Below are positions 36,083 through 45,528 of a stretch of 64,000 nt of DNA, piece by piece. Where the stretch lies: assembly GCF_017302985.1 (NCBI RefSeq), contig NZ_JAFIMU010000007.1, positions 2,356,001 to 2,420,000 on the forward strand, given 5' to 3'. The DNA comes from Corallococcus macrosporus (GTDB lineage Bacteria; Myxococcota; Myxococcia; Myxococcales; Myxococcaceae). A program made the translations under genes and the position numbers. Every line of letters starts with the position of its first letter. Positions within the stretch are counted from its first letter, which is position 1. The notes under the pieces are model-generated. The model was not told where the DNA came from. It did not search any database and was given only the letters and a program-made list of their open reading frames with translations.

Positions 36083-36537
36083 GACGTGTGCGCCGAAGCG
36101 CTGTCCTGAGATGCCGGACGCGGGCTTCACGCCGAAGCGCCGTCCTTGGATGCCAAGCGCGGGCTTTGCGACCAAGCGCAGTCCTGAGACGGCGGACGCT
36201 GGCTTCGCGCCAAAGCGGCGTCCTGCACCGCCAGGCGCGGGCTTCGCGCCCAGGCCCTGGACGACGGGACACGCAGCCGTGCCTTGAATGGCTCGTGCCA
36301 GGGGCTCGCTGAGGCTCGTCGCGCATCGCGGATTGATCACCTACGCGCCTGATGCCGCTCGCGCCCTGCTCCGGGGGGCACACTCCTGTGGGGTGCCGGA
36401 CGTCGCGCGTCCTGGCCGTGTGAAACGCGACGGGCCGCGCGCCGGCGGCTGGTGGTCTCCGCGAGGCCGCGCCCACAGTCGCGTCCACCTCTCGCGCCCC
36501 AACCCGCGGAGGCTTCCTTGCTGGACGGAGGAGGGCC
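36083..36537. other. Intergenic region before the act operon
   Basis: This 455-bp region has no supported gene. Its 5' third holds four 39-bp tandem repeats (36092-36247). The rest is GC-rich and should contain the promoter of the act-cox operon; none could be assigned. A ribosome site GGAGGAGGG lies just before actA. Confidence 0.5.
36092..36247. repeat. Four 39-bp degenerate tandem repeats
   Basis: Units start at 36092, 36131, 36170 and 36209, each exactly 39 bp and sharing the pattern RMCRAAGCGC...GTCCT...GGCTTYRC. The length is 13 codons, and the minus strand reads a 13-aa repeat like RFGAKPASAVSGL without stops, but no start or ribosome site supports a gene. Confidence 0.75.
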
Positions 36538-40214: not shown

Positions 40215-41635
40215 GCACGGCCGACCCGCAGGTGCCCGCGCCCGGGGATCCGCTCGCCGGGCACCCGCTGCTGGAGGGGCGCCACTCCGACCGCGCCTAC
40301 AGCGAGTCCCTGCTGGCGTACGTGCACAGCCCGCCGGGCCGGACCTGGTGGACGCTGCTGGGCCTGGGACTGGCCGGCACGGCGGTGCTGACGGTGGCCA
40401 TCTGCGTCACCCTCTTCGTGGGCGTGGGGACGTGGGGCAACAACATCCCGGTGGCGTGGGCGTTCGGCATCACCAACTTCGTGTGGTGGATTGGCATTGG
40501 CCACGCGGGGACGTTGATCAGCGCCATCCTGCTGCTGTTCCAGGAGAAGTGGCGCGGCTCCATCAACCGCTTCGCGGAGGCGATGACGCTCTTCGCGGTG
40601 ACGTGCGCGGGGCTCTTCCCGCTGCTGCACCTGGGGCGGCCATGGAAGTTCTACTGGCTGGTGCCGTACCCCAGCAGCCTGCGGGCGTGGCCGCAGTTCC
40701 GCTCGCCGCTGACGTGGGACATCGCGGCGGTGGGGACGTACCTCACGGTGTCGCTGCTGTTCTGGTTCGTGGGGCTGATTCCCGACCTGGCCACGGCGCG
40801 CGACACGGCGAGGACGCCCCGGGCGCGCTTCTGGTACGGGCTGGCGAGCCTGGGGTGGCGCGGCTCGGCGAGGCACTGGCGGCAGTGGCGCACGGGCTAC
40901 CTGCTGCTGGCGGGGCTGGCCACGCCGCTGGTGGTGAGCGTGCACACCATCGTGTCCTTCGACTTCGCGGTGGCGCAGTTGCCGGGCTGGCACACGACCA
41001 TCTTCCCGCCGTACTTCGTCGCGGGCGCGGTGTTCAGCGGCTTCGCGCTGGTGCTCACACTGTTGATTCCGGCGCGCAAGGCGCTGCGCCTCGAGCACGT
41101 GGTGACGCCGCTGCACCTGGACAACATGGCGAAGGTGCTGCTGGCCACGGGGTGGATGGTGGCCTACGGCTACGTGCAGGAGCACTTCTTCGCCTGGTTC
41201 AGCGCGAACCCGTACGAGATGCACGCCACGGAGGCCGAGTTCTCCGGACCCTACGCGCCGCTGTTCTGGATGCAGGTGTTCTGCAACGTGCTGGTGCCGC
41301 AGTTGTTCTGGTTCCCCCGGCTGCGAACGAACGTCGCGGTGCTGTGGGGGGCGGCGCTGCTCATCAACGTGGGGATGTGGACGGAGCGCTTCCTCATCGT
41401 GGTGGCGTCGCTGAGCATGGACTTCCTGCCCTCGTCCTGGGCGGCGTACCGGCCCACGTGGGTGGACTGGAGCCTGCTGGGCGGCACGGTGGCGTTCTTC
41501 GGCACGGCGTTCCTGCTGTTCCTGAAGTTCGTGCCGCCCGTGTCCATGAGCGAGATGAAGGAGCTCCAGCGCGAGGTGGACGCGTCGCTCGAGTTCCGGC
41601 GTGAGCAGGGCACCCGGCCCGGTGGGGCGCCATGA
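40211..41635 (+). CDS. actC: ActC, NrfD-like membrane subunit of alternative complex III
   Basis: The product is 474 aa with ten predicted membrane helices. It begins with a polar stretch including LEGRHSDRAYSESLLAYVHS, then helices with the NrfD/PsrC pattern: GVGTWGNNIPVAWAFGITNF, GHAGTLISAILLL, FPLLHLGRPWKFYWLVPYPS. It should hold the quinol site on the periplasmic side. ATG overlaps the actB stop (ATGA), and GGGAGG precedes it. Confidence 0.93.
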   Translation: MSTADPQVPAPGDPLAGHPLLEGRHSDRAYSESLLAYVHSPPGRTWWTLLGLGLAGTAVLTVAICVTLFVGVGTWGNNIPVAWAFGITNFVWWIGIGHAGTLISAILLLFQEKWRGSINRFAEAMTLFAVTCAGLFPLLHLGRPWKFYWLVPYPSSLRAWPQFRSPLTWDIAAVGTYLTVSLLFWFVGLIPDLATARDTARTPRARFWYGLASLGWRGSARHWRQWRTGYLLLAGLATPLVVSVHTIVSFDFAVAQLPGWHTTIFPPYFVAGAVFSGFALVLTLLIPARKALRLEHVVTPLHLDNMAKVLLATGWMVAYGYVQEHFFAWFSANPYEMHATEAEFSGPYAPLFWMQVFCNVLVPQLFWFPRLRTNVAVLWGAALLINVGMWTERFLIVVASLSMDFLPSSWAAYRPTWVDWSLLGGTVAFFGTAFLLFLKFVPPVSMSEMKELQREVDASLEFRREQGTRPGGAP

Positions 41636-42162
41636 ACCGCCACTGGGTGCTGGGAGAGTTCGCGTCCAGCGATGCGCTGGTGGCCGCGCTCAAGGGCCTG
41701 CGCGCGAGGGGCTTCGAGCAACTGGACGCGCACACGCCGTTCCCGGTGGAGGAGACGTTCGACGCGCTGGGGCTGAAGCGCTCGTGGCTGCCGCTGCTGG
41801 CCCTGGGGGCGGGGCTGGGAGGCGCGGTGTTCGCGTACGTGACCCAGTGGTTCACGAACGCCGTGGACTATCCGTTGGACGTGGGGGGGCGGCCGCTGCA
41901 CAGCGTGCCCACGAACCTGCCCATCACGTTCGAGCTGGCGGTGTTGAGCGCGGCGCTGACGGTCTTCGGCGCGCTGATGGTGTTCTTCGGCTTCCCGCAC
42001 GTGACGCACCCGGTGTTCGACGTGGAGTCCTTCCGCAGCGCGTCCGTGGACGGCTTCTGGGCGAGCGTGGCGGTGGCCGGCGAGGACGCGCCGAAGGTGG
42101 AGGCGGCGCTGCGAGAGCTGGGGGCGCGGCAGGTGTCGGTGGTGGAGGAGGGCGCGCGATGA
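41632..42162 (+). CDS. actD: ActD, DUF3341 membrane subunit of alternative complex III
   Basis: The product is 176 aa. It has the DUF3341 layout: a ferredoxin-like N-terminal half (LVAALKGLRARGFEQLDAHT), two membrane helices (LPLLALGAGLGGAVFAYVTQ and FELAVLSAALTVFGALMVFF), and a C-terminal segment ending LGARQVSVVEEGA. It overlaps both neighbours by 4 bp. In known ACIII it anchors the peripheral subunits. Confidence 0.92.
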   Translation: MNRHWVLGEFASSDALVAALKGLRARGFEQLDAHTPFPVEETFDALGLKRSWLPLLALGAGLGGAVFAYVTQWFTNAVDYPLDVGGRPLHSVPTNLPITFELAVLSAALTVFGALMVFFGFPHVTHPVFDVESFRSASVDGFWASVAVAGEDAPKVEAALRELGARQVSVVEEGAR

Positions 42163-43019
42163 GGCGCTGGATGCTCACGGTGCTGCTGGGCGGAACGGTC
42201 GCGTGCGAGGACACGGATCCGATGGCGTCGCAGCCGCGAGCGGAGGCGTTCGAGGCGAGCACGTTCTTCGATGACGGCCGGGCCATGAGGCCCCTGGTGC
42301 CGGGGACGGTGGCGCGGGAGTGGCGCGACCGGGGAGCGACGCAGGGGCTCACGGCGGACGGAGGTTGGGTCCAGGCGGTACCGGTGCCGTTGACGCGGGC
42401 GCTGCTGGAGGAGGGGCGCACGGCCTATGAGACCTGGTGCGCGGTGTGCCACGGGCTGACGGGAGACGGGGACGCCATCGTGGCCCGGAAGATGCCGCTG
42501 CGCCGGCCTCCGGGGCTCTTCGTGCCGCACGACCACGCGACCCAGGTGGTCTACGGAGTCGCGGAGGGCGAAGCCCCGTACACGGGAACGCAGGCCGTGA
42601 CCGCGAGGGTGGGGCCCGGAGCGTTCCCACTGCCCGCGAGGGTGGACGGGTGGGGGGCCGTGAGGGACACGGCGGACGCGGGGCGGCCCGGAACGCCGGG
42701 CCAGGGCCTGGCGGTCAGCGACGCGGACGCGGCAAGGGCCCGGCAGCACGCCCTCATCGGGCCGCGAGGCCTCGCGATGGAAGGGAGGCTCGACGCGCCC
42801 GCGGCGACGGGAGACCTGCCGCACCCGCCAGGCTTCTACTTCGCGGTCATCTCCCAAGGCTTCGGAGTGATGCCCGCATACGGCCCACAGCTGACGCCCC
42901 AGGAGCGCTGGGCCGTGGTCGCGTACCTCCGGGCCCTGGGCCGAAGCCAGCGAACCCCCATCACCGCCGCTCCCCCCGAAGTGCAGGCAAGGCTGCGCCA
43001 GGAGGTCGGAGCCCCATGA
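42159..43019 (+). CDS. actE: ActE, monoheme cytochrome c subunit of alternative complex III
   Basis: The product is 286 aa from ATG 42159. The signal sequence ends at a lipobox-like LLGGTVAC. There is one heme c site, CAVCHGLTGDGDAIV, and a likely Met ligand in GFGVMPAYGPQLTPQERW. The insertion between the two is longer than in most ActE proteins. It likely passes electrons to the CuA/heme domain of the downstream oxidase. It is followed by 1.3 kb of palindromic repeats that separate it from actF. Confidence 0.9.
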   Translation: MRRWMLTVLLGGTVACEDTDPMASQPRAEAFEASTFFDDGRAMRPLVPGTVAREWRDRGATQGLTADGGWVQAVPVPLTRALLEEGRTAYETWCAVCHGLTGDGDAIVARKMPLRRPPGLFVPHDHATQVVYGVAEGEAPYTGTQAVTARVGPGAFPLPARVDGWGAVRDTADAGRPGTPGQGLAVSDADAARARQHALIGPRGLAMEGRLDAPAATGDLPHPPGFYFAVISQGFGVMPAYGPQLTPQERWAVVAYLRALGRSQRTPITAAPPEVQARLRQEVGAP

Positions 43020-44337
43020 CGCCGCCCTGCACCCCCAAGGTCTACACCCACCGTCTGACAAGGCAGACCAAGAGGCGAACCAGGAGCCGCGGCCCAGGTT
43101 CAACGGCAACCCCCGTCCAACCAGCCAGTCCAAACTGGTCCGACAGTCGGACCAGTTCCCGCAGCCCAGGTTCAGCATCAACCCCCGTCCAACCACGCGG
43201 TCCAAACCTGTCCGACAGTCGGACAGGTTTCCAAGGTGAGCGGCCCACAGGGAGGTCCAGCCGGGCTCCCATGTCGGGATCCCCAGCGCAGAGGCGCTGC
43301 CCAGGTTGTCCAAACCTGTCCGACAGTCGGACAGGTTTCCAAAATGAGCCGCCGAAGAGGCGGCCCAGCCGGGCTCTCATCTCGGCATCGTCAGCGAAGG
43401 GGAGCCACCCGCGTTGTCCAAACCTGTCGGACAGTCGGACAGGTTTCCAAGGTGAGCCACCGACGGAGAGCCCCAGCCGGGTTCGCACCTCGGCATCCTC
43501 GGCGCAGGTGCGCCGCCCGAGCTGTCCAAACTGGTCCGACAGTCGGACCAGTTTTCGCAGGTCGGCACCGATGGGAAGGCCCAGCCGGGTTCCCTCCTCG
43601 GCATCGTCAGAGCAGGGAAGCCGCCCGAACTGGTCCGACAGTCGGACAGGTCGCCGAGGTGAGCCGCCGGCGGAGAGCCACTTCTGGGCTCCCATCTCGG
43701 CATCGTCAGTACATGCGCGCCGCGCGAGCTGTCCAAACTGGTCCGACAGTCGGACCAGTTCTCAAGGTGCGCCGCTGACGGAGGACTTCAGCAGGGCTTT
43801 CATCCCGCCATCGTCAGCGCAGGTGAGCCACCCGAGCTGTCCAAACTGGTCCGACAGTCGGACCAGTTCTCAAGGTGCGCCGCTGACGGAGGACTTCAGC
43901 AAGGCTTTCATCCCGCCATCGTCAGCGCGGGGGCGCCACCCGTGCTGTCCAAACTGGTCCGACAGTCGGACCGGTTCTCAAGGTGCGCCGCTGACAGAGA
44001 GCCCCAGCCAGGCTCCCATCTCGGCATCGTCAGCGCGGGGGATCCGCCCGGGCTACCCAAACCTGTCCGACTGTCGGACAGGTTTTTGCGTGTTGCCGCC
44101 GACGAGGAGGCCCATCCGGGTTCTCACCTCGGCATCCTCGGCGCAGGTGTGCCGCGCGAGCTGTTCGAACGGGTCCGACAGTCGGACAGGTTTTCGCGGG
44201 TCGCCGCCGACGGCAGGCCCTTGCTGGGATCTCACTTTCTCATCCGTGGAGACGGACTCTCTGCGCGAGGGCCTGGTCCTTGCGCCATTCGCTGGCTCCG
44301 CCGCCTGGTCGCGACCCGGTGAGGAGGTCCGCGCGCG
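43020..44337. other. 1.3-kb repeat-filled gap between actE and actF
   Basis: No gene is called here. Long stop-free frames exist on both strands because the repeats are multiples of 3 bp and GC-rich, but none has a ribosome site or known domain. The whole middle is the palindrome array at 43129-44195; the first 100 bp and last 140 bp are unique sequence, the latter holding the ribosome site GAGGAGG before actF. Confidence 0.6.
43129..44195. repeat. Array of eleven 108-bp repeats with a long palindrome core
   Basis: Palindromes centred at 43145, 43217, 43325, 43433, 43541, 43640, 43748, 43856, 43964, 44072 and 44180. Eight of ten steps are exactly 108 bp; the others are 72 and 99 (all multiples of 9). 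The core is CCGAC-A-GTCGG with outer arms of two kinds, ACTGG...CCAGT or ACCTG...CAGGT, giving up to 27 bp of symmetry. Arms change together in most copies; copies at 43640 and 44180 are hybrids, and 43433 and 43964 have one mismatch. Copies at 43748 and 43856 are almost identical over the whole 108 bp. The region is expected to be transcribed with the act-cox operon, so each would form a strong RNA hairpin. Confidence 0.92.
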
Positions 44338-45528
44338 ATGACGACTCCTGTGCTCCCACGCTTCGAGGGTGGACAGCGCGCGCTGATCATCAGTGCGGCG
44401 CTGGGTGTCGTGGGTCTTGTGGCCACCGCGCTGGGTGCCTTGCTCGACGTGCGTCAGGCCCTGGCGGGGTACCTCTTTGGGTTCACCTACTGGCTGGGCC
44501 TGTGCCTGGGCGCGCTGCTGCTGCTCGCCTCCTTCCACGCGTCGAAGGCGCGCTGGCCCGTGGTGCTGCGCCGCGCGCTGGAGGTCACGGCCGCCACCGC
44601 GCCGCTGTTCCTCCTGCTCTTCGTGCCCCTGGCGCTGGGAATGCGGCACCTGTACCCATGGGTCGCGCCGCCCTTGGAGCTGGGCGAGCACGCGCTGCAT
44701 GTGCTCGAACACCGGCGGACCTACAACAACGTGCCCTTCTTCCTGGTGCGCGCGGCGCTCTACTTCCTTCTCTGGGGAGGCGTGGGCCACCTGCTGCACC
44801 GCTGGTCCGTGAGCCAGGACGCCACGGGCGACTTGCGCTGGACGCTGTGGCAGCGGCGGCTGGGGGGAGGCTCGCTGCCGGCGCTGGGGCTCACGTTCTC
44901 CTTCATGACGCTGGACTGGATGATGTCGCTGGAGGCGACGTGGCAGTCCACCGTCTACGCCGTCCACGTCTTCTCCGGCGCCTTCGTGGGTGCGCTGGCG
45001 CTGATCATCGTCGCGGGCGCGGCCACTCGCGACACGCAGCACTTCGGCAGCCTGCTGTCTCCAGGCCACTACCACCGGCTGGGCACGCTGCTGTTCGCCT
45101 TCATCTGCTTCTGGGCCTACATCGCCTATTCGCAGTTCATGCTCATATGGGTCGCAGCCCTGCCCGAGGAGGTGAGCTGGTACCGCGTCCGCCTGGAGGA
45201 CGGCTGGGGCGTGCTGTCTCTGGCTCTGGTGCTGGGCCACTTCGTCATCCCCTTCGCGCTGCTCCTGTCGCGTGAGCTCAAGGCCCGCCCGCGTGTGCTG
45301 GGGGCCGTGGCGCTGTGGATGCTCGCGATGCATGCCGTGGATGTGGCGTGGCTGCTGTTCCCCTCGCTCTTCCCGGGAGGCGTCTTCGTTCCCTGGACGG
45401 CGCTCACCGCGTGGGTGGGCGTGGGCGGCCTGTCCGTGGCGGCGGCCCTCTGGCTCACGCGCGGCGCCCATCCCGTGCCCGTGGCGGATCCCTACCTCGT
45501 CCACTCGCTCCAGGTGCGCCCGCCATGA
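44338..45528 (+). CDS. actF: ActF, second large membrane subunit of alternative complex III
   Basis: The product is 396 aa with about ten helices, related to ActC but shorter. Helices include LIISAALGVVGLVATALGAL, SLPALGLTFSFMTLDWMMSL and LLFAFICFWAYIAYSQFMLI, the last two typical of ActF. It has its own GAGGAGG ribosome site, which fits its separation from actE by the repeat array. It overlaps the next gene by 4 bp. Confidence 0.9.
   Translation: MTTPVLPRFEGGQRALIISAALGVVGLVATALGALLDVRQALAGYLFGFTYWLGLCLGALLLLASFHASKARWPVVLRRALEVTAATAPLFLLLFVPLALGMRHLYPWVAPPLELGEHALHVLEHRRTYNNVPFFLVRAALYFLLWGGVGHLLHRWSVSQDATGDLRWTLWQRRLGGGSLPALGLTFSFMTLDWMMSLEATWQSTVYAVHVFSGAFVGALALIIVAGAATRDTQHFGSLLSPGHYHRLGTLLFAFICFWAYIAYSQFMLIWVAALPEEVSWYRVRLEDGWGVLSLALVLGHFVIPFALLLSRELKARPRVLGAVALWMLAMHAVDVAWLLFPSLFPGGVFVPWTALTAWVGVGGLSVAAALWLTRGAHPVPVADPYLVHSLQVRPP

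Follow-up and report, generated by a model that had tools for sequence, protein, structure and literature searches.

In the canonical FadR operator the two half-sites lie 1 bp apart. Within the FadR subfamily of GntR regulators the residue at HTH position 28 (Arg-35 of FadR) correlates with the second base of the TKGT box, Arg going with G, and an Arg at this position contacts that G (PMC4494728). A different type of organization is represented by SlmA with its SBS and Noc with its NBS, in which a DNA-binding protein has many scattered sites that become denser towards the origin (PMC4117426, PMC4331003). As to inverted repeats in general, template switching homogenises their arms and inverts their spacers in a manner depending on fork direction (PMC8604942, PMC8794818), and template switching at protein blocks displays a leading-strand bias (PMC6357072).

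The stretch of DNA analysed here (the window) consists of 64,000 nucleotides of Corallococcus macrosporus and contains, between actE and actF of the act-cox operon, an array of eleven palindromes (Table 1). An earlier note on this DNA had listed these palindromes with their coordinates and their two types of arms, all of which are borne out, as is its statement that eight of the ten steps measure 108 bp and that all are multiples of 9; indeed, the centre-to-centre distances are 72, 108 (three times), 99 and 108 bp (five times). Ten of the 11 copies have a symmetric core, in keeping with the “nearly every copy” of the note, ten of the 11 have A as their central base, and nine of the 11 long odd palindromes found in the 64-kb window belong to the array. 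The left and right arms match fully in eight of the eleven copies, four for each arm type, so that the pairing of the arms stands while the count of seven given previously does not. Upstream of the act genes, at 36089–36252, there is also a 39-bp tandem repeat with a higher unit of 78 bp.

Table 1. Palindromes, junctions and flanking genes of the array in the act-cox operon (positions in the window; type A, ACCTG/CAGGT; type B, ACTGG/CCAGT)
Feature	Coordinates	Strand	Centre	Remarks
actE (cytochrome c)	41601..43019	+		ORF upstream of the array, stop at 43019; true start probably farther in, near 42171
Left junction	43000..43031	+		end of actE and residual copy of the actF start (AGGAGGTCGGAGCCCCATGACGCC)
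Tandem array	43087..44220	+		begins with a 72-bp unit, followed by units of 108 bp, a single one measuring 99 bp
Palindrome 1	43133..43157	.	43145	arms ACTGG/CCAGT, type B
Palindrome 2	43205..43229	.	43217	arms ACCTG/CAGGT, type A
Palindrome 3	43313..43337	.	43325	type A
Palindrome 4	43421..43445	.	43433	type A; core asymmetric, with GTCGGAC on the left: long palindrome broken, both GTC-N-GAC units kept
Palindrome 5	43529..43553	.	43541	type B
Palindrome 6	43628..43652	.	43640	unmatched; left arm B, right arm A (intermediate)
Palindrome 7	43736..43760	.	43748	type B
Palindrome 8	43844..43868	.	43856	type B
Palindrome 9	43952..43976	.	43964	unmatched; left arm B, right arm differs by one base (ACCGG)
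Palindrome 10	44060..44084	.	44072	type A; T at the centre, not A
Palindrome 11	44168..44192	.	44180	unmatched; left arm ACGGG, right arm A
Right junction	44322..44353	+		actF ribosome site and start (AGGAGGTCCGCGCGCGATGAC); duplicate of the left junction
actF	44338..45528	+		downstream of the array; ATG at 44338

As had been recognised in the note, the array separates actE from actF, two genes that overlap by ATGA at the sites devoid of an array. The two junctions are copies of each other (identical at 21 of 32 bases here and at 24 of 32 in two further species) and, since the start of actF is found once more at the left one, the insertion would have been accompanied by a duplication of ~30 bp, presumably when one element entered the actE/actF overlap, to be subsequently amplified into the act-cox array. 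The duplication of the junction is also the reason why actF has a ribosome site of its own, another point on which the note was right, and a deletion occurring between the two junction copies would bring back the overlap.

The orthologous actE–actF site harbors 11, 9, 8, 5, 3 and 3 palindromes in six species and is empty in C. exercitus (G002), C. carmarthensis (G003), G013, Myxococcus eversor and Citreicoccus, the presence of the array being patchy across the actF tree. In seven genomes (the low-palindrome Corallococcus G001, G004, G008, G012, G014 and G015, plus G006) there is no close copy of the actF of the window and only a second actF copy, ~45% identical, is found. Units of both the 72- and the 108-bp type are found again in other Corallococcus at the orthologous site, where steps of e.g. 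58, 69, 71, 93, 138 and 222 bp are also encountered; a significance of the 108-bp spacing is not supported, nor is one of multiples of 9, which are not seen in other arrays. The array units are 88–90% identical in their cores and 61–72% in their spacers, and a CRISPR array was rejected since these spacers are mutually related instead of unrelated. The number of copies per orthologous locus varies widely (1 vs 10, 11 vs 5 and 6 vs 1 when the genome of the window is compared with G009, which we take to be C. coralloides DSM 2259) and, as judged from the genomes compared, palindrome arrays expand and contract at fixed loci. Thus, of the possibility that the array is “one of many random expansions”, the part concerning a copy number free to vary in place is upheld, whereas the sites themselves are not random.

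Nor is the element specific to act-cox or ACIII loci, its sites amounting to ~150 per genome. A search for the core GTCCGAC-N-GTCGGAC yielded 158 copies in the genome of the window and none for the reversed pattern used as a control, a result from which it follows that the array is not due to chance. Of the 16 Corallococcus genomes, 10 contain 70–158 core copies and the other six 4–18, while other genera have none or few. Nearly all palindrome clusters in the sampled part of the genome of the window are intergenic, and the situation is similar in G009; the dispersed sites are found mostly at the 3′ ends of genes, often directly past the stop codon, and rarely between divergent gene pairs, these gene contexts being approximate insofar as they derive from a simple codon-usage gene caller that itself misses the GntR genes. 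The genome-wide statistics refer to the listed sites and the retrieved stretches. No palindrome of this kind was found described for Corallococcus or Myxococcus in the open-access literature, subscription papers lying outside the scope of the search.

What could these palindromes have in common? The singletons among them led to a family of paralogous GntR regulators having from 0 to 15 members per Corallococcus genome. The promoters of 99 of the 101 paralogues examined contain the palindrome, the remaining two being located at contig ends; its distance from the start codon is ~100–240 bp, mostly 100–140 bp, and the numbers of paralogues and palindromes per genome are correlated (rho 0.90, p 1.6e-6). 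The N-terminal domain of the regulator matches the GntR family of Pfam (E 1.6e-12), its PDB matches are NanR, PdhR and FadR, and every copy of the palindrome contains GTC-C-GAC and GTC-G-GAC, which conform to the operator core of the FadR subfamily, NyGTM-N0-1-KACNy (GT-N3-AC). The act-cox array itself does not adjoin a gene of the GntR family, and no paralogue was found in G014, which has six palindromes.

Regulator genes occupy equal genomic places in two species in several instances (L055/L189, L071/L175, L081/L165, L082/L164 and L103/L149), and their sequences nonetheless cluster by species on the tree; it looks as if the paralogues evolved in concert, by gene conversion, and seemingly together with their operators. 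Two genomes of genus g27 of the same family, G059 and G061, have 29 and 16 relatives of the regulator, 55–62% identical, and their promoters lack the palindrome at the single locus checked in each genome (L245 and L247). The regulators have long variable tails (L055, L082, L087, L132, L164, L214, L219, L223), some of which end in a conserved LGRWAxRLWRFIAxSLGLPAS, possibly an amphipathic helix; a conserved membrane-like C-terminal segment was set aside as evidence because some of the paralogues possess it whereas in others it has been lost or is frame-shifted. In the regulator promoters read for this purpose (e.g., L055 and L126) another conserved motif, CCATGTCAGACCC...TGGTTGGATG, is located between palindrome and start codon and is perhaps a core promoter or a second operator.

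The type of arm is related to the residue that aligns with Arg35 of FadR. For 99 paralogues, the palindrome of the promoter could be read; among all of these, ACTGG/CCAGT arms are found in 23 of the 23 having Arg at this position and in none of the 76 having another residue (Ala, Glu, Gln, Lys, Val, Tyr or His), an association whose Fisher value of 5e-23 is uncorrected for relatedness, the paralogues of one genome being alike and the 99 promoters non-independent. This is the same rule that had already been published for the FadR subfamily (PMC4494728). It holds also in Archangium (genus g8, through G041, Archangium lansinium), where the proteins are only ~52% identical and where three Arg paralogues have ACTGG and one Gln paralogue does not. 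At least four changes of the residue have occurred on the family tree, and the operator tracks the residue in the sister pairs L224/L210 and L250/L252; of the sister paralogues L224 and L210, the former has SERVLA with ACTGG, the latter SEKVLA with ACCTG.

The same relationship is seen at the level of the genomes. Whole type B palindromes number 47 in G000, 42 in G011, 15 in C. exercitus, nine in C. carmarthensis and one each in G009 and G006, the other ten genomes having none; the sole type B site of G009 is the promoter of the one Arg paralogue found there, and in G005, G007 (C. interemptor), G010 (strain AS-1-6) and G013 Arg is present in none of the paralogues read, which are nearly the full set. 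For the single type B site of G006 there is no Arg paralogue among those read, which are a subset. Of 28 loci orthologous between the genome of the window and G009, 26 have palindromes in both, a fraction inflated by the derivation of these loci from two palindrome-selected lists. At L048, L071, L055, L081, L110, L116 and L053, singletons included, the palindromes are of type B in the former genome and of type A in the latter, and this switch is not inflated by the choice of the lists because type B is nearly absent across G009. Both arms are therefore replaced together at orthologous loci across species, as expected from the contention of the note that paired change concerns the palindrome itself; arms drifting independently in other strains, the finding by which it proposed to be refuted, were not seen.

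It is highly likely that the palindromes are operators of a FadR-like GntR family that has multiplied in Corallococcus, and the changes of the arms very probably follow a single amino acid of the GntR protein. Each element, in which two GT-N3-AC units overlap at a distance of 8 bp, would offer room for one or two dimers of the regulator presumed to bind it. The paired change of the arms would result from selection to keep matching the regulators of the cell, possibly assisted by mutation processes that equalise the arms of palindromes. Two properties depart from those of ordinary operators: 9 bp separate the variable outer half-sites, as opposed to 1 bp in the canonical FadR site, and the mostly 3′-end location of the dispersed sites is unlike that of usual operators and counts against the operator reading.

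The note had left the choice open between a protein dimer site and an RNA hairpin. The first is strongly favored by the regulator family, the promoter position and the residue rule; the second, for which there is no need, would entail that each copy is a hairpin of the transcript involved in termination, processing or stability and that the arm pairs represent compensation within a stem. Each unit does fold into a stem of 11–12 pairs with a 3-nt loop (z from −2.2 to −4.1), sites cluster directly 3′ of genes and the array splits an operon. However, this explanation is rendered very improbable by the fact that the arms track a protein residue (23/23 vs 0/76), that palindromes lie upstream of regulator genes as well, and that there is neither a U-tract nor an Rfam match above threshold, the one terminator-like site (0.7 expected) not being a palindrome. 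Furthermore, the GTCGGAC...GTCGGAC variants common in G009 break the long stem but keep both GTC-N-GAC units. Sigma-70 promoters in the array are at chance level.

The only asymmetric position in the perfect palindrome is the central base, whose orientation is polarised with respect to replication. In G009, near the origin, the central A is on the leading sense in a ratio of 112:11, the background A:T being 51:49; of the non-promoter clusters of this genome, 32 of 36 show this orientation at less than 2.6 Mb from dnaA and 10 of 17 beyond this distance, the regulator promoters giving 3 of 8. In G005 the ratio is 27:3 for the chromosome taken as a whole and 19:2 in the vicinity of the origin, where G013 gives 19:1, and the points at which the polarity switches coincide with dnaA in G005, G009 and G013 alike. 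The polarity is weaker in the genome of the window (41:13 on contig C7, counting sites with matching arms that do not belong to regulator promoters). When the element is read on the leading sense, the C/G position on the right is almost always G, and the one on the left is C or G (loci of G000, G009, G005 and G013, e.g., L146–L205).

Other origins of the polarity were considered and rejected: an orientation borne by the flanks, because a profile of the flanks, trained on the copies of the right replichore, failed elsewhere, so that the polarity resides in the core only; the gene strand, because replication was followed 8:4 against flanking genes and 11:2 between convergent genes; and a general strand skew, A:T and G:C near the origin being 51:49 and 53:47. 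The polarity may instead arise from strand-biased template switching at palindromes that are putatively protein-bound or, alternatively, from selection for the better of the two overlapping GT-N3-AC units. No description of a direction-marked central base in a near-perfect palindrome was found for any bacterial repeat, and the present case would allow strand-biased change at palindromes bound by protein to be tested directly.

Could the same mutational process, equalising the arms and flipping the centre, maintain palindromes that have no function, thereby making selection unnecessary? The published template switching at inverted repeats (PMC8604942, PMC6357072 and PMC8794818) and the polarised centre are both in its favor. 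It leaves unexplained, on the other hand, why the new type of arm is virtually confined to genomes that have Arg paralogues and why it should be ACTGG, which fits the TGGT box of the FadR type, and as a complete explanation it retains little credibility; template switching is probably a contributor to the paired arms and not their whole cause. That a transposase acting in trans spread the element as a mobile repeat of the REP/BIME or MITE kind is very improbable, although an ancient episode of spreading may have taken place, for the dispersed, intergenic sites, patchy at one locus, the weak wider palindrome of ~70 bp formed by the flanks and the junction duplication at actE/actF are outweighed by the occurrence of Y1_Tnp (PF01797; RAYT/IS200 type) in none of the 16 Corallococcus genomes, vs 5 of 14 control genomes, by flanks that are unlike between loci and by the many sites common to several species at which the arms switch in place.

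If the palindromes are operators of the GntR family, what could be the role of so many of them in the act-cox operon? A tentative answer, possible rather than probable, is that the array constitutes a dense platform for GntR proteins that tunes or insulates actF–cox transcription or titrates the regulator, not an RNA terminator. A bolder view, which we consider unlikely, is that the GntR family, once regulating promoters, became a system that marks the DNA throughout the genome, with many paralogues changing together with 70–160 sites, which would lie for the most part away from promoters, become denser near the origin and record the direction of replication in their central base, perhaps a chromosome organiser or tether similar to SlmA or Noc, of which the act-cox array would be one dense anchor. 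The clusters seem to decrease from origin to terminus (quartiles of 22, 17, 13, 8 and of 15, 12, 7, 5), a trend that is weakly significant (KS p 0.026 and 0.050), and by their 3′-end location together with this weak gradient the dispersed sites would seem closer to those of SlmA or Noc than to operators in promoters. The family would represent a many-times-replicated natural example of a regulator and more than 100 dispersed sites that switch specificity together, the residue responsible for the switch being predicted, and would illustrate that “compensatory change” in DNA palindromes can stem from protein co-evolution without implying an RNA structure.

Compared with the operators of FadR, PdhR, LldR and NanR, the system described here shares the GntR HTH, the GT-N3-AC operator, the rule linking Arg35 to G and the placement of a site ahead of the gene encoding the regulator itself (PMC4494728); unlike those systems, it comprises up to 15 paralogues sharing ~150 sites, many of them arrayed in tandem and lying at the 3′ ends of genes, elements in which two GT-N3-AC units overlap, and proteins whose C-terminal domain is weakly FCD-like, with long and variable tails. 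With REP/BIME it has in common dispersed extragenic palindromes, 3′ of genes and sometimes clustered, but it differs from REP/BIME with RAYT in that a Y1 transposase is absent and in that the near-perfect palindrome is found upstream of a regulator family, which it tracks. Finally, as in the case of SlmA and Noc, a candidate DNA-binding protein has many scattered sites, albeit with a weak origin gradient; unlike SlmA and Noc, it has many paralogues and is genus-restricted, and a tie to division or to the membrane would be hypothetical.
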